Shown piece after piece: positions 4,180 through 54,363 of a stretch of DNA of 64,000 bases. The stretch is from NCBI GenBank assembly GCA_017506865.1, contig JAFCMP010000077.1, positions 248,001 to 312,000 of the forward strand. The letters run 5' to 3'. The notes beneath the pieces are model-generated. The model did no database searches. It saw nothing but the letters and a program-made list of their open reading frames with translations, and was not told the origin of the DNA. Numbering within the stretch: position 1 is the stretch's first letter; each line of letters starts with the position of its first letter. A program made the translations under genes and the position numbers. Origin of the DNA: Tribonema minus (Eukaryota > Sar > Xanthophyceae > Tribonematales > Tribonemataceae).

Positions 4180-7100
4180 ATGGTGAATGTGTTCGGCCTG
4201 GCCTCCCATCTGGACATCGCCATCAGCTCACTGGCGCTGGTGGGGGTGGTTGGATTCACGGTTATCTTCGAGCACATCAGTTCGAAGCTGGAGCACCGGT
4301 TGGAGGGGACGCCCTTCAGGGAGATGCTCAACAAAATATACAAAGGTGAGGGTGAGAGCCCCACTGTTGTTTACAAAAACAAAAATATATATACAAAGAT
4401 GACAGCCACATTGTCGGAATAGGATACATTGGGAGATGCTCAACAAAACATACACAGGTGAGAGGAGGATTCATATGCTTGACAAGACTTAAAGCGGCAA
4501 GAGCGATGCTGCTGAACCGACAACATCTATGAGGTGTATGCTAAACAAGACTTAAAGCGGCAAGAGCGATGCTGCTAAACCGGCAAGAGAGATCAACTCT
4601 ATAAAGGTGAGAGCCATTCGGCAGGCTGGCAGCTGCGAGTGAAAAGGCAGATCATCCGAATTGTTGAAGCCTTTGAAGTTTGAATTGCGCAAGACCTTTC
4701 TCAGCAGGCTGAAATCCGTGAATACTTTCACCCTGCATTGTAGGTAGATGCACGTTCATCACAATTTCAGTGGAAAAGTTCCTGAAAACTCACGCCAGCA
4801 AACTCGGTCTGTATGAATTATTGTGCAGCGTGTTGCGACTCGCTGCCTGTGACACAGCGGTGCAAGTGCCATCAACTCAGGTAATCAGCGCTCTGCACAG
4901 TCATCTGACTGTGCGGGGCTGGGTTTAAGCGGCTTCGCACATTACTTGCATGCACACTGTGGCAAAACCCAGTCTTCTCTCAAGTCTTCTGTGAGCACGT
5001 CTATGAGACTTGTGCATGACAATGTGTTGTGGCCTGATCCAGCTGGCACGGCTCGCAAGAAATAGGTAGTCTGGTTATTGCTCACGCCTGACGCGCCGCC
5101 CGCCGCCGGAGCACTGCTAGTTGCGCTTAGGGTTAGGGTTAGGGTCAGGGGTTAAGGTAAGGGTAAGGGTAAGGGTTAGGATTCGCGCTAGTCCTCGTAC
5201 AGGCGCTTGCGCCCCTGCTGCACTGCATTCTGCACCAGCAAAATCTGCTTCAAAAAGCAGTGCGCTTGCTGCGCGCTGTGCAGAACTTCAATACAGTGCG
5301 CTCATCGTTCCCTGCAAAGTGAGTCCCTGTGAGCACTGCTCTATCGCGCTGATCCACGCGTAGGTGCGTGCGCCGGCGGTGTGCATCATCGCCATTGCCA
5401 GCAACTGGACTTGCGCCGCTCCGCGCACTGTTCACATGCTTCTTTGCGCAGCCATGTTTACGCGCGCGCCTTCTTCAAGGCTGTATGCGTCTGAGGTCCC
5501 CGATTCGTTCAACTGTAACTGTCAAGCAGGGGTGGTTCAATATATAAGTCCAAGCTGCCAGCCTTCGTTTGCGCCATTGTGCAAACACCGCACACACAAT
5601 TACACAGGTCACGTTGCTTGTGTGAGGCGTGTCATTGCCATAAACTGGTGTTGTATGCAATTACACACAGCCTGCACAATCTGTAAGCTATGTACTCTAA
5701 CCCTATCCTAGCCTTCACCCCCAGGTGCTAACTTCGGTGCTTGATGCAAGAAACCGCGGAGCAATCGACAGTTTGTCCCATGTTCCCAAAGCCTTGTAGT
5801 TTCTGCAGTCTTGAGTTGCATGCATGTAAAGCGCGTGGCACACACTATTAAGAGGCAGACCAGATGCGAGTACAACACCCTCACACCCCTCTGCTGTGGT
5901 CGTTTCCGTTTGTCAGAGCTCATGATCATCGGCCTTGTTTCGCTTGGCGTCACCATCCTGGAGAACTCCGGCAATCTGGTGCACGGGACCGCGTTCTACA
6001 GCTTCGAGGTGAGCGTCAACTTCAAATCCAACTTCAATGAGAACACGCAGAGTATCGACCTTGGTTGTGATGCGCCGAGGTGTCTCCTGAATCAGTCCTC
6101 TCAACCTCTGAAAGCACACAACATCTACTTCTGACCGCATGCATGGACCGCGTTCTACAGCTTCGAGGTGAACGTCAACTTCAACTTCAACTTGAGTAGG
6201 CATGCGCAGAGCGTAACTTCAGTTATGATGGTGTCTTTTGCATCAGTCCTCTGTACCTTTGGAAGCAGATGCTTCTATGTAGCTGCATGCTTGTGTCATG
6301 CTGACGACCCTTCTCTAAGCGGCCTGCAAGAACCTCTCACGTCTGTGAGTACACAAGTGTTTTTAGCCTTTTAAGCAAAAATACAATCAAGTATATCTAT
6401 CCATCACATGTATGTGGGTATGTAGAGGACATGCATGCCCCGTGCGTTGTGCAATGCAGAGAGACGCAGCCACGCCAATCGCATCGCAGGCCGGCATTTC
6501 AGAAGCCTGCTACGCTCGTGGTGCGCGTTGAGCCAATGCTCAACGCGTCATTATGCATGGGGCGTGCAACACCCCCCCTGGCCCCCCCTGGCATGTCTTG
6601 CAGCCAGCAACGTACTAACAGTGATGTTGCGCTGTGACAAAGAGCTTCTGTGAAACCTGAGCGCTGCTGTGACGCGCTGAGAACATGCCCCCCACTCACA
6701 CGCTTTGTGCTGCCGTCGCCGCTGTGTCCACCGTTTGTTGCAGTTTGCGCACCTGTGCCTGTTCTTCACGGTGAGTCACGCGTGCTGAGCGCTGCTGCAG
6801 CCCGTGCTGCAGCATGCGACAGTATGCAACGCACAGGTTTCGCTGCACATATGTGATGGCACGCGTGTTGTCGCATTGAAGTACCCTGTGATGTGCACTT
6901 CAACTGCATATACTGTGCACTGCAAGTCAGTCACCCTATACGCCCGTGGAACTATGGTGTGTTCACTCAGATCTCGGGAAACAGCTGCGTGGTGCATGTT
7001 GCAAGTTGCCTTCTCACACCGAGCACACTTGTAGGACAGCTCACAGCCTTTTATTGCAAACAGGCCAGAGTGTTGGTAGTGCAAAATGATTGCATAGCAT

Positions 7101-13100: not shown

Positions 13101-14246
13101 CTGCAATGTCAAATGAGAGTGATGATTGCTGTACCTGATTCATAGATGACTGACACTTCAACAGTACGTCACTGAGAGACAATTGCGGTACAGCACGGAA
13201 TGGATAGTCAAGGTGACCGTGGACGTTAACGTGGCGTGGCTGAGCTTCAATTCGTATTGTGAAGCTCAATTCAAAGACCATGAAACCTGCTCTTGAACGC
13301 TTTTACTTAATCTTGGCCACAGATCAGCAATCAACAACAGCACATTTTCTCCATACACACGGCATGTACACTCAGGTCGCTGCAGATGACGCCATTATAC
13401 TGTGAGCCACCAGTGCCTAGTGCACTTGAGCGTACCCTACGTATAGCTTGCCCTCAACTCCCATTGTCAAGCTGAGTGTGCGCAACCAGCCCAGAGCAAA
13501 GCGGCTCGCCCCCAGTGCAATCCCTCTTTCGCACTCTACAGTAAGTCGCTGAGGGTTAGGGTTAGGGTAAGGGTTAGGGTTAGGGTTAGGCATGGGCGCC
13601 CCGCAAGCGAGTGCAGCAGCCGCTCACAACCTGCAGCGCACTCCTCTTGCAGCGCGCAGCAGCAGCCGCTGACGCTCACCACATGTCATACGTGCCTTAC
13701 ATCAACAGTTACAGCGGTCCCATTTCATTTCAACGACGACATGAAGCGAACCCAAAAACGAAATCATCTTATTGGATGTACGCACCCTGTATCAACAATT
13801 GCTGGTTTGTGGCGGCATATTGACAACATCGTCGCGGCCATCAGCCAGGTCCATGACGAGGAAGTTTTTTCTGAAGGTTTTCCTTCTCGTTTTCCACTAC
13901 CCCCCGCCCCCGCCGCCGCCCCCTCCCCCCTCGGTGCGCTGAGCCTCACCACACGCTGTACCTACCTACTCCCCCCCCCCCCCCGCCCAGGCCACCACCC
14001 CCGCCGCCGCCCCCTCCCCCCTCGGCGCGCTGAGCCTCACGCAAGGGCTGCGCCACAAGCGCGGCGGCCGCGGCAGTGTGAGCGGCGCGCTGCGCACCTT
14101 CAAGCGCGGCAGCGTGGACCTGCTGCGGTCGCGCCGCGCGCGCAGCTCGCCGGGACCAGCGCCGCAGCCGCCGCCACTGCGCGCGCCGCCGCGCGCCACC
14201 GCACTCAATGCGGCCGCTTCCGCCTGGGATGGCGGGAGCTCTGGCA

Positions 14247-14280
<34 letters not shown>

Positions 14281-14647
14281 AAGCAGCAGCGGCGGTGCTG
14301 GCGGTGACACTGTCGGCGGAGGCAGTGGCGGCAGCGGCAGCGGCGGCGGTGGTGCCGGTGCAGGGGTGGATCTGCAACATAGAACCGGCGGCGGTGGCAA
14401 CGGCGGCGGCAATGCAGGAGGCGGCGGTGACCGCCGCCACCCCAGCATCCCAGCACTGGGTATCATCACGATCAAAACGCCGCGGACCGATTGGCCGACG
14501 CTTGATGACAGTGGCGGCGGCGCCGCTGCCTATGGCGGCGCTGCCTACACCGATCTGACCATGTACTCATCAGAGGACTCGCTCGAGGAGTCGCTCGAGG
14601 AGTCACTCGAGAACATCGACCTGGAGGGGAGGCACGACGGTTTCGGC

Positions 14648-14742
<95 letters not shown>

Positions 14743-17700
14743 CCGCGGTCCTCTGAGCATCACCGTTGAATTCCTGGCTGACACCTCTGACGCCGCCGCG
14801 GCGCGTGTTTTCACCAGCAGCGGCGGCGGCAGCGGCAGCGGCGGAGATGGCAGCGACGACGTTGGCAGCAGCGGCAGCGGCGGGGGCGGCGGCAGCAGTG
14901 GCAGCGGCGGCAGCAGCGGTGGCGGCGGCAGCGGCCGCGGCGGTAGCAGCGGCCGCGGCGGTAGCAGCGGCCGTGGCCGTGGCAGCAACGATGGGGGCAG
15001 CGGCGGCGGCGGCAACAGCGGCGGCGGCGGTGACGGCGGCGGCAGCGGCAGTGGCCGAACACGGCCGCGGAGCAGCCGCGAGCCGACGGGCGATGGCAGC
15101 AGTCGCGCGCTGAGGAGTGAGTCGAGCGCTGCTGCACTGGCGAGGCCGCGCAGCGCGCTGAAGGCGAGCACGATAAGCGCGTACGGGGGGGAGGACAGCA
15201 GCGAAGCAGTGCTCAGCATTCTGCTGGCCAAGGACGCGCCGAGGTGCGTACGGCGATGCCACAATGTGTGCGCGTGAGGCACTCGAAAGCCTGTGAAGCA
15301 ACAAAGGCTGACGTTTTGGCGCTCACTTGAGGTACTCACGAATGGCCAGATTTCTTCAATGAGGTATAAGGAAGGCGGGTACGTGCGAGGGCGGCAGCAG
15401 AGAAGGAGTGTCCGTGGGCGTTTGCACGCGCAGCACTTGTATGTGGAGTTCACAGATAGCATCGACATGCTGGTGGCACACTCACTTGTTGAAATACTTT
15501 TCACACGTGGGTGAACCTGCAACACCTGCGCAACGCCCAGCCACCTCGCAGTTGTGGAGTCAGCAGCGGTGAGGAGGCAAAGCGGCATGAGAGGAAGGTC
15601 GCAGCGCTGCGGGCTATGAGCAAGCAACTGGCAGCCAAACGTGGCACGCACGGCGCCAGGCATGTGCATTGCGCCTTCGGACTAGCCTAAGCACCTCATC
15701 CGTACCGTTTTCCCTTAATCCCCCAACACTGGCGCAACTGACATGCTGCAAACATGGATGCGTCCCCTCCTGCATCACCGTCTTGAACAGACTGTCAGGA
15801 GTGCCAGCTTTTTCAGCACCGCAAAAAACGCATCTTCCCCCCCTCACCCCCCCCAACCCCCTCCTGCCCCCCCCCCCCAACTGCCCATCCAGGCCCTCCC
15901 GAATAAACAGCAACAGCAGCGGCGGCGGCGGCGCCACAAACCCAAGCTCGCCACGCAGGACTCTCTTCAGCGGCGGCAGCGCTGCATCAGCGCTCAACTC
16001 CCCCCGCAGCGGCGCGCCGACGCCGCGCAGCGCCGGCAGCTCTGGCCGCAGGACGCTGTTCAGCAGCGGCAGCAGCGCCGCCGCCGCCGCTGCCGCCGCC
16101 GGCAGCGCGCCAGTGTCGCCGCGCGGCATGCCGTTCAGGGGCGGCGGCAGCAGCGCGCACTGCTCGCCGCGCACGCCGTACGAGTTGGAGAGCGCAGACG
16201 CGGCGGCAGCGGCGGCGGCCGCGGCAGCGGCGGCAGCGGCGGCGGCCGCGGCAGCGGCGGCAGCGGCGGCGGCGGCGGGCGCGACGCCGCGCACGCGGCA
16301 GAGCTTCGTGGCGCGTGCGGCGCGGCTGTCGAGCGTTGCTGCGAACACCGTGCTGCGCGCGGCGCTGCCGAGGCGCGATATGACGGGACTTCAACAGCCG
16401 CATAAGGAGTTGAAGTTGGAGCACGACATCTCGCACCTGTACCCCCTCGGCAGCCCCGCGCTGTTCCACCGCGGCCTCGAGGTGCTGCTGGTGCTCAACT
16501 GCCTGTACCTGGCGGTGTGGGCGACGAATTATGTGGTGGTCGCGCGCGGCGTGCGCCTGGAGGCGCTGTACCAGGTATGTATGTATGTGTTGCGCGTCAG
16601 TGTATGTTTGTACGAAGTCATGTATGTGCAGTACGTCTTGTGTGTTCGCGCATGTACTTTGAAGGCATGCATGTGTGTGTGGCGCATGGCGTGCGCCTGG
16701 AGGCGCTGTACCAGGTATGTATGTATGTGTCATGTATCCGTGTATGTACCCATGTACCTCCTGGAAGCCCATCTGTAGCTGGCTTGGCGGTCAGTAACCG
16801 TTTGATAGTGTAACTATCGCATGTGTCACACGCTTGACACAGCACACCTGTACAAAAGTGGTATACTTCTCGAAGCATTTCTCGTTTTGCATACGGTCTC
16901 CGCCCCTTGAGCAGAAGTACATTACATACGTGTGTTGTATTTCCAGTATGCGTTGATGTATGAAAGCATGCATGTGTGTGGCGCGCAGCGTGCGCCTGGC
17001 GGCGCTGTAGCAGGAACATACTATGTGTTGCGTGTCCGTGTATGCACGTACTACATACACTTTGTGTTTGTGTACGCAGGTATGTGGGTGTGCATGCATG
17101 TGTGGCATGCAATGTGAGCGGCGTAGCAGGAATCTGAGAACTGATCAACGAAAGATGCCCAGGTACGACCGCCGCAGAAATGAGCAACACCCACCTTGAG
17201 ATAGGCAAGCGTTGCTTGTGTAGCATGGCTCAGACCCGGTTAGGACAGCAATCTGCTACAGCAAATTTCAGAATTCGCCAGGTCAACCGAAGTTGCTGTA
17301 TACGCCCCCAAGTACTCATGGTGGGTGAAGTTACAAGCCTCTAATTACGCCCGCCCCCCCTCATTCCTCCCCCCTCTCCCCCCCCTCTTCAGGTGCTCAT
17401 GGTTGTCCCGGTATGCCTGAACATCCCGGTGCTGGCCCTGTGCATCAAAGCGGGGGCGCTGCTACTAGCGGTCAGCGCCATCGCTCCGGAGGTCATGACG
17501 CGCGTCGTTGACGAGCAGCTCGACACGGAGCGGCTCGTAGACGACATGCGGCGCCGCCTGACTGACGCATTCGAGAGGTGAGGCTAGGTGCCTTGTCAGG
17601 GCTTGAGAGTTAAAGTTGGGGGTTCTACAGATTGACGCTGAGAGGCGGTCAGCGCCATCGCTCCGGAGGTGATGACGCGCGTCGTCGATGAGCAGCTTGA

Positions 17701-20700
17701 CACAGAGCGGCTCATAGACGACATGCGCCGCCGCCTGACCGACGAATTTGAAAGGTGAGGTTACATGCTGCTGCTTGCGGCGCCTTCGTAGGGTTCAGAG
17801 GCTAGGGCTGAATGCTGAGGTGGTGATGATCAGCAGAGGTCATGACGCGCGTCGTTGATGAGCAAGTCGACACGGAGCGGCTAGTGGACGACATGCGGCG
17901 CCGCCTGACCGATTCATTTGAAATGTGAGGCTGGGCGCCTCGTGAGGGCCTGAAAGCTAAGCTCAGGGGCTAGGGTTAGTGCCAGTTGTAGGGCCGGAGT
18001 TGAGGTTGCAAGTTGCAATATCACGTCTGTGCTGGCGCATTTGAAAATGGCGAAATGGCGAGATGCTCAACGTTACATGCGCAGCAGCGGCGGGACCGCT
18101 GCTTTACGCTGAGTTGGCGATGAGTAGCGATGCCAGATGGTGATGATCAGTGCCATCGCGCCGGAGGTCATGATGCGCGTCGTTGACGAGCAGCTCGACA
18201 CGGAACGCCTCGTAGATGACATGCGGCGCCGCCTGACCGACGCGTTTGAAGGTGCGGTTGTATACCGCTGCTTGCGGCGCATTCGTAGGGTTCACAGACT
18301 AGGGCTAATACTGAGATGGTGACGATCAGCAGAGGTCATGACGTGCGTCATCGACGAGCAGCTAGACACGGAGAGGCTGGTGGATGACATGCGGCGCCGC
18401 CTGACCAATGCATTTGAAAGGTGCGGTTGTATGCCGCTGCTTGCGGCGCTTTCCTAGGGTTAACAGGCTAGGGGTTAATGCTGAGATGGTGATGATCAGC
18501 AGAGGTCATGACGCGCATTGTCGACAAACAGCTAGACACTTAGCGCCTCGTAGACGACACGCGGCGCTGCCTGACCGACGCGTTTGAAAGGCGAGTTTGA
18601 GCGCTGGCGCATGCGCAGTGCCTTACCAGGTTTCGCAGGCTAGGGTGGCGTGGCGCAACGGTCACCCTTCCCAGGGCTCACGGGCTAGGGCTACGCGCCG
18701 CGACAGTTACCGTGCTGATGCTCAGTGACGACAGGCGCCGCCGCCTGATCGACGCATTTCAAGGGTGCGGCTGGACACCTTGTGAGGGCTTGAGGGTTGA
18801 GTGCAGGGGCCACTGCTGGTGCCAGACGTAGGGTCGGGGTCGACTTTGGAAGATGCGCCGCCGCGTTTGAACAATCAAACACGCAACGCCACACGTAGCG
18901 GCGCCGGCGGCACCCCCGCGCAGCACTGAGACGGTGATGAGCAGCGATGCCATGATGGTGATGAGCAGCGATGCCATACGAGCGCCTCGAAGACGGCATG
19001 CGCCGTCGTCCAACCGGCGCGTTTGCAAGGCGAGGTCGAAGAGTGCCGCACGCGCGGTGCCTTCTTAGGATTCACGGGCTAGGGTTATGCGCCGTCACAA
19101 TCACCGTGGTGATGTTCAATGATGCCATGCGCCGCCGCCTCACCGGCGCGTTGGGTGGTAAGAGCCGGCGGCGGTGGCGGCAGCGGCGGCAACAGTGCGC
19201 ATTGCGCGACATTGTCTCAGAGTCCGCTTTGGGGTCAGGTCGAGTGCTAGCAGTGCCACAATCATGTCCAGCGCAGTACTTGTACCCACACGGCCGTGTC
19301 TGCGCTCAGGTGAAAACAACATAAATCAAAACAGGTTGGGACTGGGCAAGAACGGCCTCTCTTTGAGTAGCCCCAAAGACAGCCTTGAGACCGCCGGTCT
19401 GAGAGCGAGAACTACCCAAGTAACGTTTGGCACTAAAATTGTACTTCGAAGTATACCCCTGTCGATTAGCCCTCACACTACCGTGTGCGCTCCACTGACA
19501 ATGAAAAAAAACGAGAAACAAACAAAAAACACGTTGGGACTGGGCAAGAACGGCCTCGCGCACCTCTTTGAGGAGGCCCCAGAGTCCGGCTCAGGATCAG
19601 GTTAAGTGCTAGTATACCATAATTATGTCCGCACAGTAGTTTTACCCGCGCAGCCGTGTCTGCGCTCCACTGACTCCCCCCCCCCCCCCCCACACACACA
19701 CACAGGCTGGGATTGGACAAGAACGGCCTTGCGCACCTCTTTGAGGAGGCGAGTCAGCTGGGCTCCGACACGCTGTCCCAGTCGTGCTATCTGTACTTTT
19801 TATCAATTCTCGCTCAGGGCGCGAAACAGCCCAGATGATTGGCATCTAGCTGTAAGGAATCTACATGTCATATGACAGTCTATCTGTACTATGAAACGAC
19901 CACTGACCGCCAAGCAACGTAATTGTACCCACATGGCCAAGTCTGCGCCTCTACTCTAACCCTAACCCTAACCCCAACCCTGAAAACAAACACGCAGGTT
20001 GGGACTGGGCAAGAACGGCCTTGCGCACCTCTTTGAGGAGGCGAGCCAGCTCGGGTCCGACACGCTGTCGCAGTCGCAGCTGAGCCAGCTCATGGCCAAG
20101 ATGGAGTTCCACGTGTCGGCGGAGCAGGCGCGGCGCATCTTCAAGGCCATGGACAAGGACCAGACGGGCGGCATCGAGCACGCCGAATTCTTCGAGGTGA
20201 GCGCTGCCGCACGCCAACCCTAACCCTAGCTGTAGTCCCTGACCCTCGATCTACGCGGAAGTCATGCCTGGAGCACAGCCTCCAAGTGTGTGTGAAGGTG
20301 TCATGGACCAAGCTCAGACGGGCGGCATCGAGCACGCCTAGTTCTTTGAGGTGAGCACTGCCGCACGCCAACCCTATCTAATCTGGAGCCAACCCCAGTT
20401 GGGGGCCTGGTTACACCGAACCGCATTCCACTGTGTACGGCTACGAAGCGTGTTTGGAAAGGCCATGGACAAGGACCAGACGGGCGGCATCGGGCACGCA
20501 GAGTTCTTCGAGGTGAGCACTGCCGGGAAGTGGTCCAGGGGGGTTGTGAGCTCAGCATGGCTGGTCACCTGAAGTTGTGCTTCAACAAATGCTGCTTTTG
20601 CATGTGCATGCAAAACACTACAGTGGATTCAAGGCGGCTGGCACATGGCAGGGACAGAAACAATGTCTGTGCTTCCGTTGTGCGACCTCGCTGCTACTTC

Positions 20701-22604: not shown

Positions 22605-25600
22605 CTATTTCTTGCCAACAGTGGTGAGCACCCCCTCAGCGCCGAGGTCAAGCATGAGCGCCTTGGTGTCGAGGTACAGGCGGTTGGTGCCCTTGGAGAC
22701 GGTGGTGGCAATCTCGCGCGCGGCGTCGATGCGCCTTAGCTGCAGGAACCCCGGGTTGTCCTTGATGGCCTTGCCGATGAGCGCTGCCGACTCGGCCTCT
22801 CCCTTGGCCTTCAGCACAATGCTCATCTGCGCAAGACAGTAATGTGAGTTATTGTAAGCGTTGGCGGAGCGGAGGCTTTTGAAGCGTCAGCGCTCGATTT
22901 ATCGTTGTGAGCGCCGCTGTTGGCGATGCTCGACTACATTCCTTGATGGCCTTGCCGATGAGCACTGCCGACTCGGCCTCTCCCTTGGCCTTGAGAGCAC
23001 AATGGACATCTGTGCGCGCGACAGGGATCGGAATTGTGGTGAGCGTTAGCGAAGTTTATGGCGGGGGGCAGAGCTCACATCATCATCATGTTTCTAAGTG
23101 TGGGGGCAGAGCTCAGTTCATCATTGGGCCGCAGCGCATCAGATGAGCGTAGCCGACTCAGCCTCTCCCTTGGCCTTGAGCACAATACTCATCTGCGCGC
23201 GCGGGCATGGCTAGCATTGGAGGTATCGCGGGCGACGGTCATCTGAGAGCAAGTGATGGAAGATAGGCAGGTATGGTACTTGTGAGGGTGGTCAGATCAT
23301 CAGGCAAAGACGACCCAGCGCCTCCCCGGGCTTTGCAGCGGCTGCAGAGTTCGGCAGTAAGGCGAAGGTGAAGGTTAGCAATTTTATCGCGCTAAGCATG
23401 ACGGCAGATTTACGAACTTGCACAGCAGCAGTGACAGGGTTCGAGGTGACGTCAGTGGCCTCTCCTTTGGCCTTGAGCACACTGAGCAGCGGCCACAAAG
23501 TTGGGCATTGGGGCTGGGGTCAGCAGTCTCTCCCTTGACTCCGAGTAAAGCAATACGCTTGACCATGTGCGAAGCAGCAGTGACAGAATTCGAGGCAAGG
23601 GTTGGGCTGACCAATCTCTCCTTCGGCCCTGAACAGCTTTGCGTCCCGGCCAAGTGAGTGAGTACTCACTGAAAGTAATCGAAGTTAGTTAAGGATCAAC
23701 TTGAGTTGACGCCCGCTCACCTTCTCCTGCACCGCCTTCATAACCCGTACTTGGCGCGCTCAGCATCCTGCTGTGCGACCTGCCTGACCTCGATTTTCTG
23801 AAGTTGAACTTTGGAAAAAATTGAAGTTGGCGCTCGCTCCCACCTTCTGCACCGCCTTCATAACGACGTACCTGGCGCGCTTGGCATTAAGTAATTAAAC
23901 CACCAAGCAAAAACTCAACAACGGCATGCTGAGCCTTCAGCCATTTTTGTCGACTTGAACTTTGTACTCCAAAAGCAGGTGATGCTCTCACCTTCTCCTG
24001 CACCGCCTTCATGACGACGTACTCGGCGCACTCCACGTCCTGCTGCGCGACCTGCTTAGCCCCATATCATGAAGTTGAACTTGAGACTAAAATTATTGAA
24101 GTTGACGCTCGCTCTCACCTTCTCCTGCACCACCATCATGACGACGTACTTGGCGCGCTCAGCATCCTGCTGCGCGACCCGTTTTGGCCTCGCTCAAATA
24201 TTGCAAAGTTGAACTTTAACTAAAATGAATTGAAGTTGACGCTCACTCACCTTCTCCTGCACCGCCTTCATGACGACGTACTTGGCGCGCTCGGCATCCT
24301 GCTGCGCGACCTGCTTGGCCTCGATAGCCGCAGTGTACTCGCGCGAGAACGCCAGGTGCGTGATGGCCACGTCGTCAAGTTCAATCATGAAGTCGCGCGC
24401 GCGGAGCGTCAGCGCCTCGCGGATCTGCGGCCCAGCGCAGGACAGAGCGGCGGCGTCAGTTTTTCTGGTCATTAGTAAGAACAAAAAATCTTGTGATGAG
24501 AATATGCGCTGCTCTATCAACTGAAATCAGCAGCCAGCAGCCTCAACTCGTGTTACAGCATCTGCTACGATGGCACAACGGAGAGTGGTGTTGCGAACGC
24601 GAGCGCTGTCACACATCGTGCTTGTAGCTGATCCACTTTGACGTGTCTTTTAAGGGTGCTGTTGGATTGAAGGTGAGATGGTGGTGGGGCGGTGAGCCAC
24701 ACAACGCGCCAGGCGCGGTGGTAGAGGGGGGAAGGGGGGGGGGGGGGGCTGGCGTAGGCCACAAACTATAGATGGGTGACATTGAAGACCGTACGCGAGT
24801 TGCCAGCAAGGAGCATCGTCCGCGCAAGATTTATGTGACCATCTGTTTTTCGCACGGTACATTGTGTTGAGGAGGGAGCGCGCAGCAGGGCTCGTCGATT
24901 TGAACATGCACTTCGCGCGTCATCAGCAGCTCCTGCGCACTTGTCTGTTACAAGCGGCAGCCGAAGTGATAGGGGTCTCACCAGCTACACGAGTTGCACT
25001 GCAGCGCTCACGGCTTCGTCGCGTTGTCTGACAAAATTGGCATCCGAAACAGCATTATATCACAAGCTGCAACACAAGTTGCGCTGCAGTGCTCGGCAGA
25101 CTAGCGCAGCAGCAGCGCTTACCGATTTTAACACATCCTTACGCTTCATCACCAGCTCAGACACGTTGTCTGACGAAAGTGGCATCCAAAACAGCATTAT
25201 TATCAGCTACGCATCACACTGCAGTGCTTAGCAGCCTGATGCAGCATTGCTCGCCGATTTTGACACGTCCTCACGCTTGGTCAGCAGCTCGGACGCGTTG
25301 TCTGACAAAAGTGGCATCCAAGATAGCATTAACACCAGTGCTGCACTGCAGTGCCCAGTAAAGTGTCACAGCGGCAGCGCTCACCGATTTTGACACGTCC
25401 TCACGCTTGGTCAGCAGCTCGGACGCGTTGTACTTGGCCACCACCGCCTTGAGCACCTCGTTGATGATGGACGGCAGCACGCGGTCGTCGTAGTTCTGAT
25501 GCGGCGCAACGGAGCAGACATATGACAGTTACGGCGGTTGAGCGTTGCTGCATTACTGTAACGGTGGGCAGCAAGTTACTATGAAAACGGACATACACTT

Positions 25601-31321: not shown

Positions 31322-31352
<31 letters not shown>

Positions 31353-34500: not shown

Positions 34501-37500
34501 AAACAGTAGATTTGCAGATAGCCATGTTTTCCCACTAGCCGTCAGCACTTGTGGCGCAAATAGATATTCACTGGAAGCATTCATCTATCAATGATCTCCT
34601 GGCAAGGTTGAGGCGTGTTGTAACCAGCGTGGCCGGCGGCACCTCCGCAGCACAGAATACTGCGACAGCGCCTAGTCTCAAAATAGTAGATTTGCAGATA
34701 GCCATGTTTTCCCACAAGCCGTCAGCACTTGTGGCGCAAATAGATATTCACTGGAAGCATTCATCTATCAATGATCTCCTGGCAAGGTTGAGGCGTGTTG
34801 TAACCAGCGTGGCCGGCGGCACCTCCGGCGGCACGGACTGCGACGCCAGCGCCTAGACTCAAAGCACTGTATCACGTACTTCAACAGCTTGGGCAACACT
34901 TGTGGCGACGACTTGACGTTCAGCAGAAGTACACATACTTGTGCTTACACTCGCCTGGCAAGATTGAGACGTGCTGTCACGAGCGTGGCCGGCGGCACCT
35001 CCGCCGGCACGGACTGCGGCGATAGCGCCTGCGCGGCGTGCGCAGCGACGTCCGCCGCCGCCTGCCTCTCGTTGAGATGCAGCAGTACCTCACCGAGGAG
35101 GAGGGCCAGTTCCGGCTGGCCGGGCTGCAGCGCGACGGCCCTGCACGGAACAAGTTCAGGATTGTTGTCTTGTGCTGACTTTTGAAGGTAGTACTCGGGA
35201 GTGACGACACGTTGATGTTTGCTGCCGCAAACTGCTTGACGTTGGTGTGTGCTGCAGACTGTTTAATCATGGCGCTGATGACTAAGGCAGTAGGGTTTCG
35301 CCGAGGAGAAGGGCAAGTTCCAGCTGGCCGCGGTCCGGCGCAGCAGCTGGCAATGCGCAACAAAGGTGACATGTGTGAAAGTTCGCGACCGACCGGCATC
35401 CAGACACTGTAATGCTTCGGAATAACATTCTGTTTAAGCACTCGAAGCAGCATGCTTCAAAGTACATCAGGTGCGACACAATAATCACAGGAGCAGGCCT
35501 CGCTATGATGGAGGGTGCGCTCCGGGTTAGGGTTAGGGTTAGGCTCAGGATAGGTGGCATGTGGTGACTTCAGTGAAGAAACGTGAATGTCGTAGTCAGG
35601 AGCATGTACTTCGCAGTGATCACGTTGATGTTTACCGCCAACTGTTTAACAGTTGTGATGATAATGAAGGCTGAGGGCCTTGCCTTGCGAGGGCGAGCTC
35701 TGGCTCCCGGGCTTAAGGTTTGACTTAGCCTATCCTAAACCCAATTGCAGGGCTTAGGGTTAGCCAATTCTAACCCTCACAGCCCTGCGCGTCGCAGAAT
35801 GATAGTAGTACTTTAAAGTGGGCATATGTATCAGTCGATCGAGAAAATGACAATTATCACGCTGACAAGATCCACCTCCACCACAATATCAATGGCAGCA
35901 GGGCTCTGCCGAGGAGGAGGGTGAGCAAAGTGGAGCATTGACAGCAGTGCGACGGTCCTGCGCCGCACAGAACACAGGCCCCGATATATCGATGACTTTG
36001 AAGTACAGTGATTGTGGAAAATTCGAAGTGGGCACAACGCCTGCATTGAAAGCAAGAGCGTGTATACCTCAAGTAGACTTTCGCCTGAGCTTTGAAGTGG
36101 GAACCACACCTGCTCTCAAAGCAAGAGCGTGCACATACTAACCCTACACCTGACCCTAACCCTAACCCCGGCAAGCCGCACGCCGCCATAGTGTCAAATA
36201 CCGCTTGAACGTGCGGCGTGGCATCCGGCTTACACGCGCAACGCGAGCATCGCCGCCCCCTGCCACAATGCGCACCAGTTCCGAGTGTGAAAGCAATTGA
36301 GCGAAGACTCAGCGTTGAGCACTGGCACAGCATCCTTTAAGCGTCTCTACGCGCACAAGTTGTGCCCCTGCAGCGTTCGTTGAGGCGATACCAGCACACT
36401 ACTAGTATGTGTTCACGTAGGCGGTTCAGCGGCAGGGTTGAATGCGCTGTCCAAATAAAAGAAGCGCTGGTGTCTTTAAAGGGTAGGAGAAATCTAGGTA
36501 AACTTCTGGTCAAGAGGGAGAGTGCTCGCTGTAGGTGATCAGGCTAACTGCGGTGGTTGATACCCAGCCCTAATTTGCGGCAGGGGCGTCACCTGTAGAA
36601 GTTGTCCGCTGCCGCCCTCAGCAGGCGCGTCCTCTCGCTCAGCCCAGGCGCCTGCGACGAGCACGGATCACAGCGCCAATTCACAAATGTGAACCACAGC
36701 ACAATTCACACATGCAAACAACAGCAACATCCACACGTGTGAACCACAGCAACATTCGCACATGTGAACAACAGCAACAATTCACACATGTGAATAAGGC
36801 CTGCGTCAAGCGCTGAGCATTGGGCATGAGGCGCTCGGATCATTTGTACTGCAAATCAAGGGCTAGGGTCGCCTAACCCTTACTCGACCTGACCCCCTAG
36901 CTCCTGTAAGCCCTTGGTTCCACACTGCTCAGCGGCTGACCTGGTCCACCTGCACGTCTTCGGGTACAGGAGCGCTAGGCCCTTGTGAGCGAGCGCCAGG
37001 ACCAGGAAATGTATGGGTATGCACATCAGCCCCTGCAGCACCTCAGTGCTGGCTGAAAATGCTGGCTGAAGCCCATCCTAGCCCCTTGGCAAACCTGGGG
37101 TGAAGGTCAGGCTCTCGCTAGAGTGGGGGGTGCGATGCAAGCACCGCTAGACTTTGGTGGGCGAGCGCCAGGCCCAGGGATACCTGAAAAGTGTGCTGCG
37201 CCGAGACTCAGATTTGAGACCAGAGAGCACCATCATCTGCACCATACCGCTATTTCGAAGCTGCTGTACAGCACTGCCACCAAGAAGCGGCCCTTACTTC
37301 CACACTGCTCAGCTCGGCTTAGTATGTTAGGTCATTAGGGTTGGGGTTAGGGTTAGGATTGGCGTTAGGCCTACCTGCGCATCTTTGGGGCAGCGCAAGG
37401 CCCTTGTGAGCGAGCGCCAGGCCCAGGGGTATGTATGGGTATGAATACCACCCCCTGCAGCACCTCGACCTTGTCAAAGAGCGCGGGCGAAAGGCCATGC

Positions 37501-41718: not shown

Positions 41719-41755
<37 letters not shown>

Positions 41756-46080: not shown

Positions 46081-46323
46081 ATGGCGGATGATGAGTTTTT
46101 CAATCCCCTTGATGCCTGCAGAAGGCACGAGAAGCGACACAAGAAGTGCATGCGAAAATGGTACACGGAGCACTTCATGAAGGGGGATGTGGGTGGGGGA
46201 GATGTCTGCCATCAGCTTTTGTTGGACTGGAAGGAGTGCGTTGCTATAGCGGTGGAGGATCACAAGGCAGGCAAGACAAGAGATGCATCAGGTAGCAGTG
46301 CTGATAGCGCAGCTCGAACATGA
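46081..46323 (+). CDS. TRIAP1/Mdm35-like twin CX9C protein
   Basis: Single exon, 80 aa. Two CX9C motifs are exact: C13-x9-C23 and C43-x9-C53. The linker has KWYTEHFMKGD, matching the WFxEKFLKGD of human TRIAP1 and yeast Mdm35 (family knowledge). These small proteins are imported into the mitochondrial intermembrane space, oxidised by Mia40, and pair with PRELI/Ups proteins to move phosphatidic acid for cardiolipin synthesis. There is no cleavable leader, as usual for the family. The C-terminal Ser/Ala/Asp tail after residue 62 is not conserved. It is one of two identified complete genes here with no intron, and shows no edge duplications. Confidence 0.92.
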   Translation: MADDEFFNPLDACRRHEKRHKKCMRKWYTEHFMKGDVGGGDVCHQLLLDWKECVAIAVEDHKAGKTRDASGSSADSAART

Positions 46324-48194
46324 CACGCACCCTCAGTGTTGCCCTAGGTCTTGTAAATACAGAGCTGCACCCCACTTCGAGGCCCGGCGGTGTGCCTGCT
46401 TTACACATGTGTGTGCTGTCTGCCATGCAATGAACACATCTACATTCTTGCGCTTTGAAAATTCTCAAGCAATTTTTTCTGTATTTGCAGCTCTCGTGAC
46501 TTGTGATGGCAGCAGATCGGCGATTGCAATTTTTGTAGCCATGAACGGGTGCTGCCAGCAAGCGCTGTTACCGCTAGACCGTGCCACACACATTTCTTCT
46601 ATGAGGGGCCAAACACGCTTTTTCGAGAATGCTCACAGATCTGAAGACGCATGGCAGCTGTCGACGCTGGCCGCTGGTTGGGAGGGCTGACACATTTGAC
46701 GGGCTGACACATTTGACGTGCAGTTGTGGCCAGCCAGAAAACGACGGTGTTTGACTCTGCAAGGGAACTCTTGAGGGTTACAGGCCCATTTGAATGTGAG
46801 CTACTTCATGCACCCTACCAGCGAGAAGCTGCCATGCGCATGGATTCTGTGACGGCATTGGTCCAACTGCGGAGTCATTGGCTATGGCGCAGGTTGCTTC
46901 TCATGGGCACGCAGCGGGACCGCCAGCAGATATATGCCTTGTGTAGGTATGATACTAGGTGTGTGTACTGTCTACTGTGGCGCATGTGTCAAATCACACA
47001 GGCTAGCAGTCTGACCTTGAAGTAATTGCTTGAAGCTGCAACTTGCAGCTGCAGCTGCACAAGAATGCCTAGCACATCCGCCGCATGCACTCACACCACA
47101 GGCATACTGTAGATGGACACACATGGCAGCAGCAGCTATCGCACCTCAGACACTGCGATGATTGGGGAATTGCCAGGCACGCACGGACTTATGTGACGCA
47201 TCAGAAGTGACAATAGCATGCCGTCGCGGCAAGGTGTAGAATTGACCACTCCTAACAAAAACACAGCAATGTTGTAGCCCCCCCCCCCACGAGCGTGTGC
47301 TTACCGTCTGACGCGACGTGTACACCGCTCGGCAGCCCGCGCCCCCTGATTGACAATACCTCGTTGTAAACTGCTTTGAACTACTGCTGTTTGCATCGTG
47401 GCTCACTTATTAGTTAGTATGTGACTGAACGGCATGGCCTACCTCTCCCCCCCCCCATGTTGCCTCACTAGCAGCATTCAAGGGTCACGTGACCCCTCAG
47501 GGACAGCTCTCAGCAACCTTAGTGTTAGAGCTATGCGGCGCCGCACGCGTGCGGGCGCCAGTGATTTGGCACGCAGGGGGGGAAGGGGGGCACATGCGCT
47601 AAGACGCTCGCAACCTAGGGTTAGCGCTGTGCGACCCCAGGAGCCAGCGCTCAGCGCAACAGCGCAGTGTACCCCTCAAACCACCGGTGAGCCGCACAGC
47701 AGCGCGTGCGCGTGCTAATACGCGGAGCACTGCTGCCACACGCCGAACACCATCCGGCCGCAGGCGACCGCACGACAGGGGTACCCGCGCTCGCGTTGCT
47801 GAGCCTGCTGCCCCCCGAGCTGAGTGTGCCACTGCGACCTGCGGTTCGCCTGCGGCCGCCGCCGCTTCCGCGACTGACGGGGCAGGGCATGCGCATGCGC
47901 CGTGCTGAGCGCTGCTGCACCCTGGGATGAGCAACGCTGTGACCTGCTGCAGCGCGCGCGCCGCTACGGTAGCAACCCCAGGTTGAGCGCTGCTACAACG
48001 CGTTGTACACCTCCGGCCGCCGGTGGTCGGCGATGCGAAACACGCACGCACACGGATTGCTGAGCACTGTTATGACCTCTGAGCTGAGCGCTGCTGCAAA
48101 TGCCCTGTACACCTCTTGGCGCCAGCGACGCTGCTGCGGCAGGGTGTGCGCATGCGAAGTTTTTGAGCGCTGCTGCAACCCAGGTTGAGCGCTG
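46324..48194. other. Region between TRIAP1/Mdm35 and NIT1-like genes
   Basis: A + frame at about 46716-46911, between a CAG and a CAG-GTTGCT, could be an exon (VTGPFECELLHAPYQREAAM), unidentified and weak. A poly-C run lies at 47280-47290. From about 47640 on there are 'gagcgctgctgc' words and decayed copies of the NIT1-like terminal exon. No firm gene. Confidence 0.4.
47990..48140 (-). repeat. Ghost copies of the NIT1-like terminal exon, past its stop
   Basis: At 47998-48050 'cgttgtacacctccggccgc' with 'cggtggtcggcgatg' repeats the last codons (DHRRPEVY) of the gene, at 48196-48240. A second decayed copy ('ccctgtacacctcttggcgcc') lies at 48103. They lie downstream of the stop, so they arose outside an intron. 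Confidence 0.88.
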
Positions 48195-51100
48195 CTACAG
48201 CCCGCTGTACACCTCCGGCCGCCGGTGGTCGGCGACGGGCATGCGCGCGCGTATCTCGCGCAGGCGGTTCAAGTCAATGTCGGCCACGCACATGCCCTCG
48301 CCGTCCGCGCAGCGCGCCACGACTTCGCCCCACGGATCCACGACCATGCTGTGCCCGTAGCTCTCGCGTTTCTGCGCAGGGCGGCAAATACAGTAGGAGG
48401 GTTAAACAAAGCGAGCGACTGTGTGGGGCGTGAGCTGCGACATCGCCCCCCCAGATTGATGATAATGCTGTGGCCGTAGCCCTCGCCGTTCTGCGCGAGG
48501 GCCACAACCTGGCACACCGCGTCTCAATCAATGAGCCGTACTGCGGCACATTCACTGAACACCAATACGTGCGAGTGACTCCGTCCATAGAGGTGAGAAT
48601 ACTTGGAGCACCACCAGTACTTCAAGTGACACCAATGCTCTTCGAGTACCTCGTTGCGTCGCCGCGACTGCGGTGCCACCGCCACATAGCACCGCGTCTC
48701 GATCAATAAGAAGCAACACTGCAGCGCATTCACTGAACACCGATAAGTGAAAGTGACACTGTGTACAGGTGTTTAGATGGAGTACTTGAGGTGCGACTCA
48801 TGACTGAAATACGACTCGTACGTTAAGTGACACCAATGCTCCTCATGTACCTCGTACTTTGAGTGACACCAACTTTCTCTAAGTACCTCGTTGTGCCGCC
48901 CCGACTGCGCTGCCGCAATCACGTAGCACTGCATCTCCATTGATGAGCAGCACCACTGCAGCGCATTCACAGAAAACCGACACTCAAAAGTGACACTGTC
49001 CATATACTTCAAAGTATGAGATACTACTTGAGGAGCACCACCAAGTAGTAGTTTAAATGAACCGATGATTGTCAAGTACCTCGTTGTGCCGCCCTGACTG
49101 AGCAGCGGCCACCACGTAGCACTGCGTCTCGATCGCGCGCGCACGCAGCAGCACCTCCCAGTGCGCCTGTCCTGTCGGCACTGTGAACGCGGCCGGTATC
49201 AGGATGACCTCCGCTCCCCTCTGGCGCAGTGCCACATAGAGCTGCCACCAATCACAGCGGCAAACAGCAGGGCGAGTTGGGTTGGAATCGATGATGGTGG
49301 GTTGTTGTAGGTATGTAGGTAAGTTGGTACAGCAGCCACGAATCACAGCTATAAACGTGGTACGAGTACCATTGGTCCCATGCAAGCGGCCAGAGCTGCT
49401 GAGGCGGGTGACAGGCAGATGCACGGAGTCGTTGGGGACGCACGGCATTTCGTGCGGGATTTCGCGCAGAGCAACTTGCCAGCAAACACGTAGCCGGTGC
49501 TCAAAGTCATTGGGTGCGGGATTGCGCGCTGAGAAACTTGCCAGCACAGCAAAGACATCACGCAGCGCAGTCACTCTCCTGCTGCATGGGCTACTTTGAG
49601 AATGGCAACAGAGCGTAGGCGGGTTCGAGTGTGCGCAGCGCTTCGCTGCTGCTGTCGGCTGCTGGCCACGCATCAATGGCCTGCTGCCTGAAGTTGAGGT
49701 TCAGTAGGCATCAATGGCCTGCTGCCTGAAGTTGAGGTTCAGTAGGCATTTCTGTACTTGAAGTAGGCGTCGACAAGCACATGTTATGCAATGTCGACAG
49801 TTTCTCTCGTTGGCACATGCAGCGCGTCGACCTCTGGTGGCGGCATAGTTCTCGCTGCCATCAGTGCAAGTGCAGTTTTGTGCACCTGCCGCTAGCGCAA
49901 CTTCATCAACGTAACTGCCAATCAGCCAACCGCCGATGGCACGGCTGCCTCTGGCATAACTGCAAGCGTCAGATTCACGCCATGCTATTGACCGCGCAGC
50001 AGCGCCCGACAGAGCACACAGTGGTTCTGAGGGCAGTCTAACAGATGAACACACACACACAGCGCGCTTTGGCACTCATGTTGGTGTACGGAGTGATTTT
50101 CTATGTTGAGGAAAGCAAGCGCAGGTTGTGGCAGGTACATGGATACAACGCCGCGCTCCAGTTTTGAGTAGCTGTTTTTACCTCAGGAAAGCGCAGGTCG
50201 TAGCAGATGGACACGCCCAGCTTCCCCACCGGACTGTTGGCGACTGCGGGCGCAGGAAGTTGAAGTACAATTCTTGAAGTTTGATCATTGAGCGCTGCAG
50301 AGTGCGGCAGTGCTGTGCTTGCGTGCCCAATCATGTGTGCATTACGAACTGCTGCGGACAGCTTCACCTGGCAGCCGCCGTGATGCACACTGCAAGTCGA
50401 AGTTAAACAAGGGCCACCCCCCACACATAATTGTTGCAATGGGATGAAAGCATTGCGTGCCCAGCGTATTCTGCACTCCTGGCGTCCAATTTGCAATCTG
50501 TGCTGCAGTGGGGTGACACTAGAACATACATTGCTTTGGAACGCTCCACAAACAGAAAAATGTCAGCTTGAAGTACATTTGTAGCTGCTTCAACAAAAGT
50601 TATTCCACATGCATGGCAAGCTCTTGCTCTTCTTTTCGGAAGGACGGTACTTCTGGTGATGGCACCTGGGCCAAACTCCCTCAAGGGGTACAGTTACTGC
50701 GCAAGGGACTGCTGCATATGGTCCTATTTATGAAGGCCAGGCGGCGGTTGACAAGCAATGGCGCGAGTAGTGCTGAGCAATGCTGCACACATGTGCAGCT
50801 TTGGTAAGGGACAGCTGCATACTTCGAGTATTGTCCTGTTTTCTTGAGAGGCCAGGCGGCGGCCGACGAGCAGCGGAGCGGGTAGTGCTGAGCACTGCTG
50901 CACGCATGCGCAGCCCACTGGCTCCTTCTCAATATTTCGACGACGTATCAACAAGCATGTGTCACCGTGAAGTGGAAAACAGCGATGTCAACCGGAGCAA
51001 CGCTTTTGCACAAGCACATGAAATATAGTCCCACAAGTGCGGGCTACGGTAGGGGTCAAGGCTGGAGCTGGAGTCATGCAAGCAATATGAGCATCACCAT

Positions 51101-54100
51101 CATCAGGTCGCCCCCCTGCTGTTTCACATGTGCGCGAGAAATACAGTTTCACAAGTAAGGTTGACCTCAGAGTTATGAGGACGAGATGAGCATCACCATC
51201 ACCCCCTGCTATTTCCACACGTGCGCGAGAAATACAGTTTCACAAGTAAGGTTGACCTTAGAGTTATGAAGGCGAGATGAGCATCACCATCATCAGGTCG
51301 CTCCCCTGCTATTTCCACACGTGCGCAAGGAACGTCAGTTTCACAGGTGAAATCAGAGTCTGGGTTCGACCTAGAGTTATGAAAGCGGAGTGAGCATCAT
51401 CATCGTCGTCAGATCGCGCACCTGCAATCGAGTCGCCGGCCTTGGTGAAGGCGCTCTCCTTGAGGTTGACGTATGGAGCGTCAAACATGTGCAGCTTGCG
51501 GTAGCGCGACTTCAACTCTCCCTCCGCGTCAATAATGACGTGGCAGTTCTGCAAACGAAGTATCAGAGATTGTGCAGCGACGGTCGCTTGAGCCGCCGGG
51601 CTGCTGCGCAGGTGCAGGTGACAGTCTTCAACTACAATGTGAAAAGTGAAGTTTATGATCAGTCTCCAACTACACCCAGTGAAGTTTGTGTGCATTCGAG
51701 GCGAGTGCACTCGCGGTGATGCTGTGATCAGTAACACCCGTGTGCAGAGGCGCTGGCAACGTTCTGCGGTGCTGCACCTCGTGGACAGCGCGCATGGCGC
51801 GGAGAGTCGCTGCATACATTTCAAGAAACTTCAACACGGATAGCGGTTGGTTTTTTCAGCGCGCAACTGCGCTCAGCCAAATCATCATGGGCCATCCTTA
51901 TGCACATGAAGTGACACAGTACTTTGAACCGGGTACACACGGTAGTGTGCACAGCAGCAACTCTGCCAAGGGCTCGAATGAAACAGTTCTGCCAAACTGT
52001 GGCCAGGGCTGACGCTGGATGTATTTCCTGCCGCTCATTCCGGCCTTGGCCCCAAACCTAGCTGCCTAACGAACCCCGTGCACGCGCCTGCTGACAACGC
52101 CTTTTACACTAGCTGCCTTTTACGCTAGCTGTCTGACAATGTGCGCTGGCTGACAAAGCCTTCTACGCTCATGACACCGTGCACTGGCTGACAAAGCCTC
52201 ATATGATTAAAAACACATCGGTCCAGCATCTCACCAAAGTCCTGCATTGTATGCGGTTCAACCTCCATTATCGGTGGGCGTGTAACCCTGTGCATCACCT
52301 CAACCTTGATTGCCTCTTTCTGTGCAGTACTTGCTGACAGCTCCTCTGCAAGGCAGCATGACACACAAAGTTGAAGTTCTGAACTTGAAGTCACCGCAAT
52401 CACCATTCTTGCCCCCCTTCCGTGCTAGCCACTATCGATAGAGCTATATGAACTTCCATACACACTGGTGCAGAGCATGCCATCGGTGAACAGAGACACA
52501 CGAACTTGAACTTGAAGTTTCATGGTGATTGAGCTCACCGCGATGAACTCCTTGTCCCCCTCCGCCCCTTCCTCCGTTTGCTGGTCAATCTTCTCCTGAA
52601 ACCCCCCCAGGCTGAGCCAGATGCCCAGGTCCTTTGCCAGCCCCCTGTACCTGAGCAATGTTTTCCCCTCCAGGGGCTCCGCTATATCCAAGCTCTTCCG
52701 AACGCCTGACCCCAGAAAGTTGAAGTTCTGTGGACACATGCGGGTGCGTAGTGCGCACGGTGACTTGCTTGCAGCCTCAAAGCAGTTAGGACCATAAGAA
52801 GCTTCACAGTTGCGCCTTCGTTCCTTCACACCGCTTCTCACGAAAAGCTGCAGTGTCATGCCTGCCATACTGCACTCATGAGCAGCTGGTAGGTCTTGTT
52901 TGCGGGCTGACACAGGCAAGGTCAGGGATTGAAAAACATTCCTCACTTACAATAAACAAGTCATGTCTGTTGTCGCGATGCGCCGTCATTGAGTTCGACC
53001 ATGCTGCTGCTTACACTTTTGAGGGTGCAAATGCGTGACATGCAACGCGTGTCACACAAGTGGCTAATGTTGTCCAGTCCTGTGCCTCCAACAGGCCAGG
53101 GAACAGGACGGAGGCGTTGTGGCAACGCTCCGCAACATCCAATTCTAAGACTTTCACTTTTTCATTCACAGCGTGTCGCGTGTATGTGAGGCAGAAGGAG
53201 GAGGGCGTGCCTGTGCTGATTGGGCCACAGGACATACAGCCGGTACATCACAGACTTGGAAGCAGACTGACTTTTCGGTGCACTGTCACGTCCTGTCATA
53301 CTTTCGCCTGCCCTGTACGGCTCTACAAAGCCAGCACCGGGTGCCCAGTTGCCAAGACACTAAACATGTGCCTGGTGTGCTTTAACATGTGCCACACATG
53401 AATCTGTAAGTCTGTGCTGCACTGGCTCTATATGCTAAGGCCCAATCAGCAGAGGCACGCCCTTCTCCTCCTGTCTCACATACGTGGGGATACGTTTGAG
53501 GTTGTGCATGAAAAACGGAGCGTCTTCGTCTTTCGAATGCGATATTGCGGGGCGTTGCCACAACGCCTCTGTCCTGATTCCTGGCTTGTTGCAAGAGCAA
53601 GAGAGAATGACATCTGCCACTTGTGTGGCAGGTGCTGCATCTTGGCGGCAAGAGATAATCACACGCTGTAGACTCTATAGATGGCTCTACCTGGTGGGTG
53701 AGTGTCTGCTTCCGAGCATTGCATGTGGACCGTCTTGTGATTGTCAGATGGCGGTGCAAACTGTGTGTTGTGCGGCATACAAAACATGTGTCAAGCTCGC
53801 GATTGGATCTGCGGCATGGCACTTGGGATCCAAGCGCAGGTGCTAGGGATTTCGGGAGCAGAAGTGCACATCGCTCAGGTTCATATTTGGAAAAAAGACC
53901 GGTTGCTGCAGCAAAGCACAGCTGATTGCAGCAACAGGAAGGTCGGGCACTCCAGTTACGGTGTGAACTAGCCTAAACAGTGCTTCTCCAATGTAAAGCA
54001 GTGCTCCTCGAATGTAAAGAACATGCCACTCACCTCGGGGAAGCACGCCAGCGAGGCTCCGCATTCCTGCGCCAGCGCCGCAAATTTCGCCACCGCAGCA

Positions 54101-54363
54101 AAGTTCTTCTCCACATCGTCCGTGCTGCACAGCTGGCATACTGCGATGCGGCTCACATTCTTCTCCGGACTCCACAGCGCAGGATACACTGCGGTGTCAG
54201 GCGCAGCAGATGCACCTTTTTTGACTTCACTGGAATCAGGCAACGGCATGCTCGTCATGGCCAGATGTCGGGACTGCCGCAGCACTCTAGCGGGGGCTGG
54301 AGCTGCTGCCAGTGTTGCCACGCCCACTGCTCTCCACAGGGAGCGGCCAGCTGTTATCAACAT
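48195..54363 (-). CDS. NIT1-type nitrilase-superfamily amidase
   Basis: Six exons on -: 54363-54034, 52727-52539, 51548-51422, 50243-50182, 49241-49080, 48371-48195; phases close to 348 aa. Residues 1-37 (basic, Ala-rich, [24 protein letters not shown]) look like a mitochondrial leader. The body follows human NIT1 closely: [92 protein letters not shown] and DHRRPEVY. The nitrilase triad is E110, K191 and C229. NIT1 hydrolyses deaminated glutathione, a metabolite-repair reaction (family knowledge); this substrate is inferred from similarity. No Fhit fusion is seen. An acceptor two bases short of the start (CTCAG, TGC ATG) suggests a further 5' exon, possibly near 54790-54870. Confidence 0.94.
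48440..48510 (-). repeat. Ghost copy of NIT1-like exon 6 acceptor edge
   Basis: 'gatgataatgctgtggccgtag' with 'ccctcgccgttctgcgcgaggg' repeats the exon 6 start (48340-48375), diverged. The shared words are 'atgctgtg(c/g)ccgtag' and 'ttctgcgc'. Confidence 0.75.
48590..49070 (-). repeat. Ghost copies of NIT1-like exon 5 donor edge
   Basis: Two units (about 48640-48735 and 48880-48975) repeat 'agtacctcgttgtgccgcc', 'cgactgcg', 'acgtagcactgc' and 'tctcgat', as in 49075-49135, followed by 'gcagcgcattcac(t/a)gaa' spacers. Confidence 0.88.
51080..51400 (-). repeat. Tandem copies at NIT1-like exon 3 donor
   Basis: Three units of about 95-115 bp with 'gatgagcatcaccatcatc', 'tttcaca(t/c)gtgcgcgagaaat' and 'aaggttgacct(c/t)agagttatg' lead up to the true exon end at 51422, whose own intron start has the same words. 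Confidence 0.88.
53040..53650. repeat. Inverted repeat in NIT1-like intron 1
   Basis: Arm 53075-53235 and arm 53445-53610 are inverted copies with moderate divergence. Shared words in complementary sense are 'gaggcgttgtggcaacgc', 'tatgtgag(g/a)caggag' and 'gggcgtgcct(g/c)tgctgattgg'. The loop is about 210 bp. Both arms keep the same open frame (ALWQR ... [11 protein letters not shown] type), but no family was recognised. Confidence 0.8.

Follow-up and report, generated by a model that had tools for sequence, protein, structure and literature searches.

Tribonema minus is a yellow-green alga belonging to the stramenopiles. In a 64,000-nucleotide stretch of its genome (the window, G000:C77:248001-312000), a first-pass annotation had described decayed copies of exon edges in the introns beside most exons, and had suggested either slippage and template switching or repeated insertion of partly spliced cDNA as the cause. 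We asked whether these copies, here called ghosts, are real, how far they extend through the genome (158.2 Mb, 554 contigs) and whether their placement demands a process acting on splice junctions. The observation was confirmed and extends past the window to other genes of the genome.

At the PHB2 locus, the joined exons encode a protein 100% identical over 294 aa to the annotated T. minus prohibitin-2-like protein, in which no ghost sequence occurs. Six edge arrays accompany its eight edges: exons 2 and 3 carry one on either side, exon 4 on its donor side and exon 5 on its acceptor side (Table 1), in line with the earlier statement that exons 2-5 bear edge copies. At the exon 4 donor, the tandemly repeated, decaying unit takes in the donor itself together with ~70 bases of exon and ~60 of intron. 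Searched against the genome, a PHB2 array matched itself alone.

The six exons of NIT1 were joined by the transcript-derived protein P0121, a EukProt Trinity ORF. P0121 contains no ghost sequence and comes from another source, whose gene may or may not have ghosts. Exons 3 and 5 bear an array on the donor side and exon 6 on the acceptor side, and these are the three exons named previously; the exon 3 array was scored as intron-only in the 54-array count given below, for which 8 exon bases were required. Introns 1 and 2 had no arrays, introns 3 and 4 held interior repeats too, and a further array crosses the stop codon. For the MLO-like gene, one exon end was checked, giving eight plus-strand matches downstream, three of them partial (the query was the first copy, and the working exon may be another). 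A homologue search with the joined MLO pieces returned no match. The arrays of the other MLO exons and of the JmjC-TPR exons were seen as repeats.

Table 1 Exon models and repeat arrays in the window (positions counted from its first nucleotide).
Feature	Position	Strand	Basis or remark
MLO-like exon end and copies	17483..19153	+	Exon end 17483-17578, then 8 decayed copies
PHB2 exon 5	22826-22605	-	Model
PHB2 exon 5 acceptor array	22759..23203	-	Repeat comparison
PHB2 exon 4 donor array	23704..24325	-	Unit about 121-132 bp
PHB2 exon 4	24424-24251	-	Model
PHB2 exon 3 donor array	25020..25431	-	Unit about 130-142 bp
PHB2 exon 3	25495-25385	-	Model
PHB2 exon 3 acceptor array	25462..26077	-	Unit about 85-91 bp
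PHB2 exon 2 donor array	26093..26563	-	Repeat comparison
PHB2 exon 2	26504..26760	-	Model; joined protein equals annotated T. minus protein
PHB2 exon 2 acceptor array	26636..27302	-	Decayed copies of intron end and exon start upstream of true acceptor; range includes exon start
PHB2 exon 1	ends 29205	-	Model
Tandem array, region called JmjC-TPR by first-pass annotation	33874..34863		180-bp x 5.5, 96% matches (Tandem Repeats Finder)
NIT1 stop-codon array	47881..48235	-	Coding/non-coding edge without splice site; 93.5% over 62 bp
NIT1 exon 6 acceptor array	48320..48502	-	Repeat comparison
NIT1 exon 5 donor array	48515..49134	-	Repeat comparison
NIT1 exon 3 donor array	51065..51428	-	7 exon bases in repeat

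Beyond the window, we sampled 21 stretches holding members of the CCT, ATP-synthase and proteasome families (PF00118, PF00006 and PF00227), a hand-picked, non-random choice; kinase and carrier matches were left out of the intron sample, and loci L038, L039 and L051 contributed no intron. Splice edges were refined using reading frame, model position and GT/GC-AG ends. A first batch yielded 40 refined introns from 13 loci (15 exon pairs with non-contiguous model positions were skipped) and a second batch eight (one skipped), to which four PHB2 and five NIT1 introns were added, giving 57 introns with both edges modelled and a length of 47,387 bp. In two cases (L036 intron 2 and L042 intron 3) the automatic edge was a ghost and was replaced by the copy that runs on into the exon body. 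Low-complexity matches and those shorter than 25 bp were dropped ahead of counting. Continued use of the original edge is suggested by the annotated protein for PHB2 and by the other-source transcript protein for NIT1; elsewhere edges rest on homology. Splice sites in the sample are ordinary (AG/GTGAGT and CAG/G). GC-AG introns number two of 52, namely PHB2 intron 1 (window 29205) and L045 intron 2.

In these 57 introns we detected 54 local direct-repeat arrays (E 1e-3), 41 of which include exon bases from the edge they adjoin, split into 22 at donors and 19 at acceptors. The repeat unit has a median of 149 bp and mostly measures 80-200 bp. Totals vary slightly by rule: 54 arrays (41 edge), 55 (43 edge) or 49 (39 edge, NIT1 excluded). 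By the 55-array count, 43 edge arrays stand at 114 splice edges, that is, at over a third. Under a stricter rule applied to 44 introns, 27 of 41 arrays extend across the edge with 7 or more exon and 8 or more intron bases, and six cover the exon part only. The distribution among genes is uneven, from seven arrays at ten edges in L042 and four at four in L047 to none in four of the 20 sampled genes (L041 with 14 edges, L040, L045 and L053). Edge copying is thus recurrent, but the initial wording that it affects most exons was too strong, because edge arrays occur in 32 of 57 introns, leaving 25 without, and are absent from those four genes. The proposal that the copies would explain intron length was partly borne out: local repeats cover 14,777 bp (31.2%) of the intron DNA, and introns with an edge array have a median length of 942 bp versus 565 bp for those without (P=0.002).

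These matches exceed chance and, as far as tested, are local. Shuffled introns gave no matches in three replicates of 44 introns. Of 88 edges compared with the 44 introns, 38 recurred as direct copies within their own intron beyond 60 bp, and none as an inverted copy. Matches elsewhere than in the own intron numbered 29, of which six fell in a different intron of that gene and the remaining 23 in other genes; among the 25 of 29 listed, the other-gene matches either joined paralogue pairs (L047/L048 and L040/L046) or measured 26-38 bp. The copies are direct and adjacent, with exon and intron parts duplicated together. This anatomy fits the suggested slippage or template switching, that is, local tandem duplication at the DNA level. 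The other cause proposed at the outset, recurrent integration of partly spliced cDNA, or else RNA-templated repair, would account for the splice junctions in the copies, which are a sign of unspliced RNA; given the lack of inverted copies among the 88 edges, the position beside the parent edge, the co-duplicated intron sequence and, among the 25 of 29 matches listed, only short other-gene matches beyond paralogues, we find it barely credible.

Exon interiors were copied less often than edges; equally frequent copying of exon centres would, according to the first-pass annotation, have refuted the pattern. For 33 internal exons, 43 of 47 exon-to-intron copies reach the edge and four are central; none of the 47 is a whole-exon copy, and no copy lies wholly within an exon. 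In 15-bp windows, 20 of 66 edges and four of 33 midpoints were copied, a thin margin (P=0.051). Tandem duplication also inherently favours edges.

We consider it probable that the arrays go back to recurrent tandem duplications of local segments over splice edges, followed by growth and largely neutral decay, with a modest hotspot in addition. Segments of ~150 bp (mostly 80-200 bp) including a splice edge would be duplicated in tandem, by slippage, template switching or the filling-in of staggered breaks. A duplication within an exon would break the protein and presumably be purged. An edge-crossing duplication would be harmless: the copy joined to the exon body would still be spliced, the extra edge falling in the intron, and such events would survive because the intact edge keeps being spliced. 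The intron would lengthen as arrays grow, while the ghosts would decay largely neutrally. With a unit that matches many exons in length and takes up a large part of many introns, edge-crossing events could be common without any targeting.

The ghosts decay as non-coding DNA. In 18 arrays with at least two ghosts, changes private to the exon fell at codon positions 1, 2 and 3 in a ratio of 1/0/11, 11 of the 12 being synonymous, while those private to ghosts were distributed 60/42/80, with 72 synonymous and 110 non-synonymous changes among 182. Polarized in this way, the substitutions point to coding constraint on the true exon copy and to none, or hardly any, on the ghosts. Pairwise exon-ghost mismatches (57/849, 36/843 and 126/843 by codon position, PHB2 left out) lean strongly toward third positions, partly because the exon itself changes there. 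An initial reading of this skew as strong ghost constraint largely, if not wholly, disappeared after polarization; the pairwise lean and the mild one among ghost-private changes both exceed plain ghost neutrality, perhaps owing to synonymous exon change together with GC-rich third positions. Across 56 ghosts, exon parts show 8.7% substitutions and intron parts 23.6%, which comes close to the 1:2 ratio predicted when one side of each exon-ghost pair is free to change. Gaps are rarer in exon parts (0.6% per bp versus 6% per bp), below half the intron rate, a shortfall made less telling because trimming at BLAST ends favours gap-free stretches.

A splice dinucleotide (GT/GC or AG) is retained in 49 of the 56 ghosts. 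Together with the third-position lean, this could speak for ghosts that are used or regulatory, as alternative exons, splicing enhancers or decoys under selection. By our own arithmetic, however, such retention is about that of neutral sequence at ~9% divergence, with no selection either way; moreover, 110 of the 182 ghost-private changes are non-synonymous, and neither the annotated PHB2 protein nor the NIT1 transcript protein, the latter from another source, includes ghost sequence. A functional role therefore appears very improbable. Retention at about the neutral level and two proteins free of ghost sequence are also what bears on the idea that the copies supply decoy splice sites.

In the ATP-synthase paralogues L047 and L048, one and the same edge has a donor array in both genes, but the array content differs. 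Unless the two originated in parallel, arrays can thus outlast gene duplication and keep changing. One exon region of this pair is 97% identical while the intron array content has diverged, which makes it a natural test of array turnover.

How far does local duplication alone account for the concentration at edges? We calculated expectations by placing units at random and filtering out exon-internal ones. With pre-array intron lengths, from which all array growth and one repeat-family insert had been removed beforehand, 26.0 edge arrays were expected and 41 of 54 observed (P=1e-5), a ratio of 1.58 (1.32-1.88, bootstrap over genes). Using current lengths minus each array's own expansion, the expectation was 20.7, and 0 of 200,000 simulations matched the 41 observed. 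At E 1e-6, 41 of 49 arrays were at edges versus 22.3-23.6 expected on the pre-array basis. Geometry hence accounts for at least half of the pattern at edges (21-26 expected, 41 seen). The systematic targeting proposed in the first-pass annotation is only partly needed, as random duplication with an exon filter by itself predicts 21-26 edge arrays.

Geometry might even suffice without any hotspot if introns were short when the duplications happened, since nearly every ~150-bp segment not lying wholly within an exon would then cross an edge. By our arithmetic, pre-array lengths were about 170 bp for L036 intron 3, 190 bp for PHB2 intron 2 and 380 bp for PHB2 intron 4, and lengths as short as these are expected to put about half of the arrays at edges. 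One of three long intron interiors tested contains a repeat family. However, the excess of 41 over 26.0 persists on the pre-array basis, and introns of at least 700 bp before arrays still have six of ten arrays at edges versus 2.3 expected (P=0.012), or eight of 11 versus 2.8 at E 1e-6. Furthermore, genome searches with interior sequence of PHB2 intron 1 and of L046 intron 1 gave no or one short other match (very common words skipped). We judge this purely geometric account rather unlikely. Repeat-family insertion as the reason for array-free interiors was likewise seen in only that one of three long introns. The interior concerned belongs to an ATP-synthase-family intron (L050 2802-4302, G000:C224:433801-435301) and carries a ~1.1-kb repeat family with 45 genomic matches listed, mostly 73-88% identical.

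Other sources of the excess were considered. Detection bias was rejected as its main cause: in simulations at observed ages, 248 of 260 edge arrays and 236 of 260 intron-only arrays were recovered, the latter being nearly as detectable at equal age. A young-array subset (best match at least 90%) had 14 of 14 arrays at edges and was given no weight, being biased because exon-ghost pairs diverge about half as fast as intron-intron pairs. Telomere-like repeats were rejected as seeds, lying a median 313 bp from edges versus 234 bp for random positions. Interstitial TTAGGG-type tracts themselves are very common, with 27 counted over 42,265 bases from 52 introns (0.64 per kb) and examples in the window at 5127-5180, 13552-13590 and 43045-43090. 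A shared breakpoint motif was set aside, the splice sites being ordinary and GAGCRCTG-type words occurring 37 times in the interior versus four near donors. As to word usage in general, the 9-mer TAACCCTAA exceeds its second-order expectation about 370-fold in 232 kb, and words of the AACTTCAAC / ACTTCAAGT type occur 20-40 times as often as expected in the window and L036-L055.

The excess could also reflect a strong hotspot linked to RNA processing, in which splicing or transcription paused at junctions breaks or re-replicates DNA. Donors and acceptors are affected alike (22 and 19), the exon part of the unit is non-uniformly placed (KS P=0.010, n=36, in a measure affected by detection limits), and five of ten intron-only arrays in the 49-array count lie within 14 bp of an edge, four of these within 4 bp. 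Splice edges also have 43 arrays at 114 edges versus one at 11 stop codons, that of NIT1 (10 genes, of which the tails of L037 and L055 are doubtful, plus NIT1), but this contrast is not significant in a Fisher test that equates 43 arrays with 43 edges (P=0.095). Repeat coverage stays level, at 0.30-0.38, over the first 600 bp counted from the nearest edge and drops to 0.08 farther in; the flat stretch counts against a sharp hotspot. We therefore regard a strong RNA-linked hotspot as unlikely. In our preferred account of local tandem duplication, the residual 1.3-1.9-fold excess over the conservative baseline would represent a modest mutational hotspot at splice junctions or intron ends. A bolder formulation, which we offer tentatively and hold to be possible though doubtful, is that splice junctions are hotspots for ~150-bp tandem duplication, destabilized by transcription or splicing, with introns growing inward from their splice sites.

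Among known systems, the arrays most directly recall boundary-crossing tandem duplication, as they consist of direct adjacent copies containing exon and intron of the same edge. In potato, a tandem duplication crossing an intron-exon boundary of RdRp made a new intron (Ma, Lan and Niu 2016, PMC4974935), and splice signals were carried along, as they are here. Unlike that single recent case of a new intron, the T. minus duplications are recurrent, affect over a third of sampled edges and often include several decayed copies. The AGGT model of intron gain, also described in PMC4974935, and the origin of introns from tandemly duplicated exonic segments bearing a proto-splice site (PMC2891723) share with our arrays that tandem duplication followed by splicing leaves the protein intact. 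In these models an exonic piece creates an intron, whereas in T. minus a piece of exon plus intron is added beside an existing one. Under the AGGT model, the start of the intron should resemble that of the next exon, and its end that of the previous exon. No array joined both edges of an intron, but the ghosts described above had been selected for spanning their own edge.

Introners of Amoebophrya (PMC7789003) form dispersed families in which short repeats occur, both direct ones of 3-5 nt and inverted ones of 8-20 nt. They too place repeats at exon/intron borders in a protist, but ghosts are private to their own locus as far as tested, and among the 25 of 29 matches listed, related copies in unrelated genes were not found. 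Duplication of mutually exclusive exons is not indicated either, with no whole-exon copy among 47 and ghosts that accept non-synonymous changes. Minisatellites consist of head-to-tail units and grow in copy number, as do our arrays, most of which, unlike minisatellites, start from the splice edge they belong to and include exon bases. The brown alga Ectocarpus has long introns (autosomal median 524 bp), and edge copies are not mentioned in the part of the text examined (PMC12477816). A search of titles and abstracts, with most subscription journals outside its reach, found no report of recurrent edge duplication.

The arrays provide a visible route to longer introns without transposons, making up 31% of sampled intron DNA with most of them edge-anchored. 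Ghosts furnish a neutral standard of comparison next to each exon, and, as decoy splice sites in natural decay, they lend themselves to tests of why a site is used. If the hotspot is a true one, splicing or transcription would shape DNA mutation, at a scale testable in one genome.

Some further observations concern the gene families searched. Kinase matches on G000:C144, C223 and C278, and likewise on C90 and C179, had identical or near-identical scores on different contigs, which suggests unmerged haplotypes or recent segmental copies. Five proteasome-family exon matches over 33 kb (G000:C223:32962-65868) perhaps represent a local gene family.
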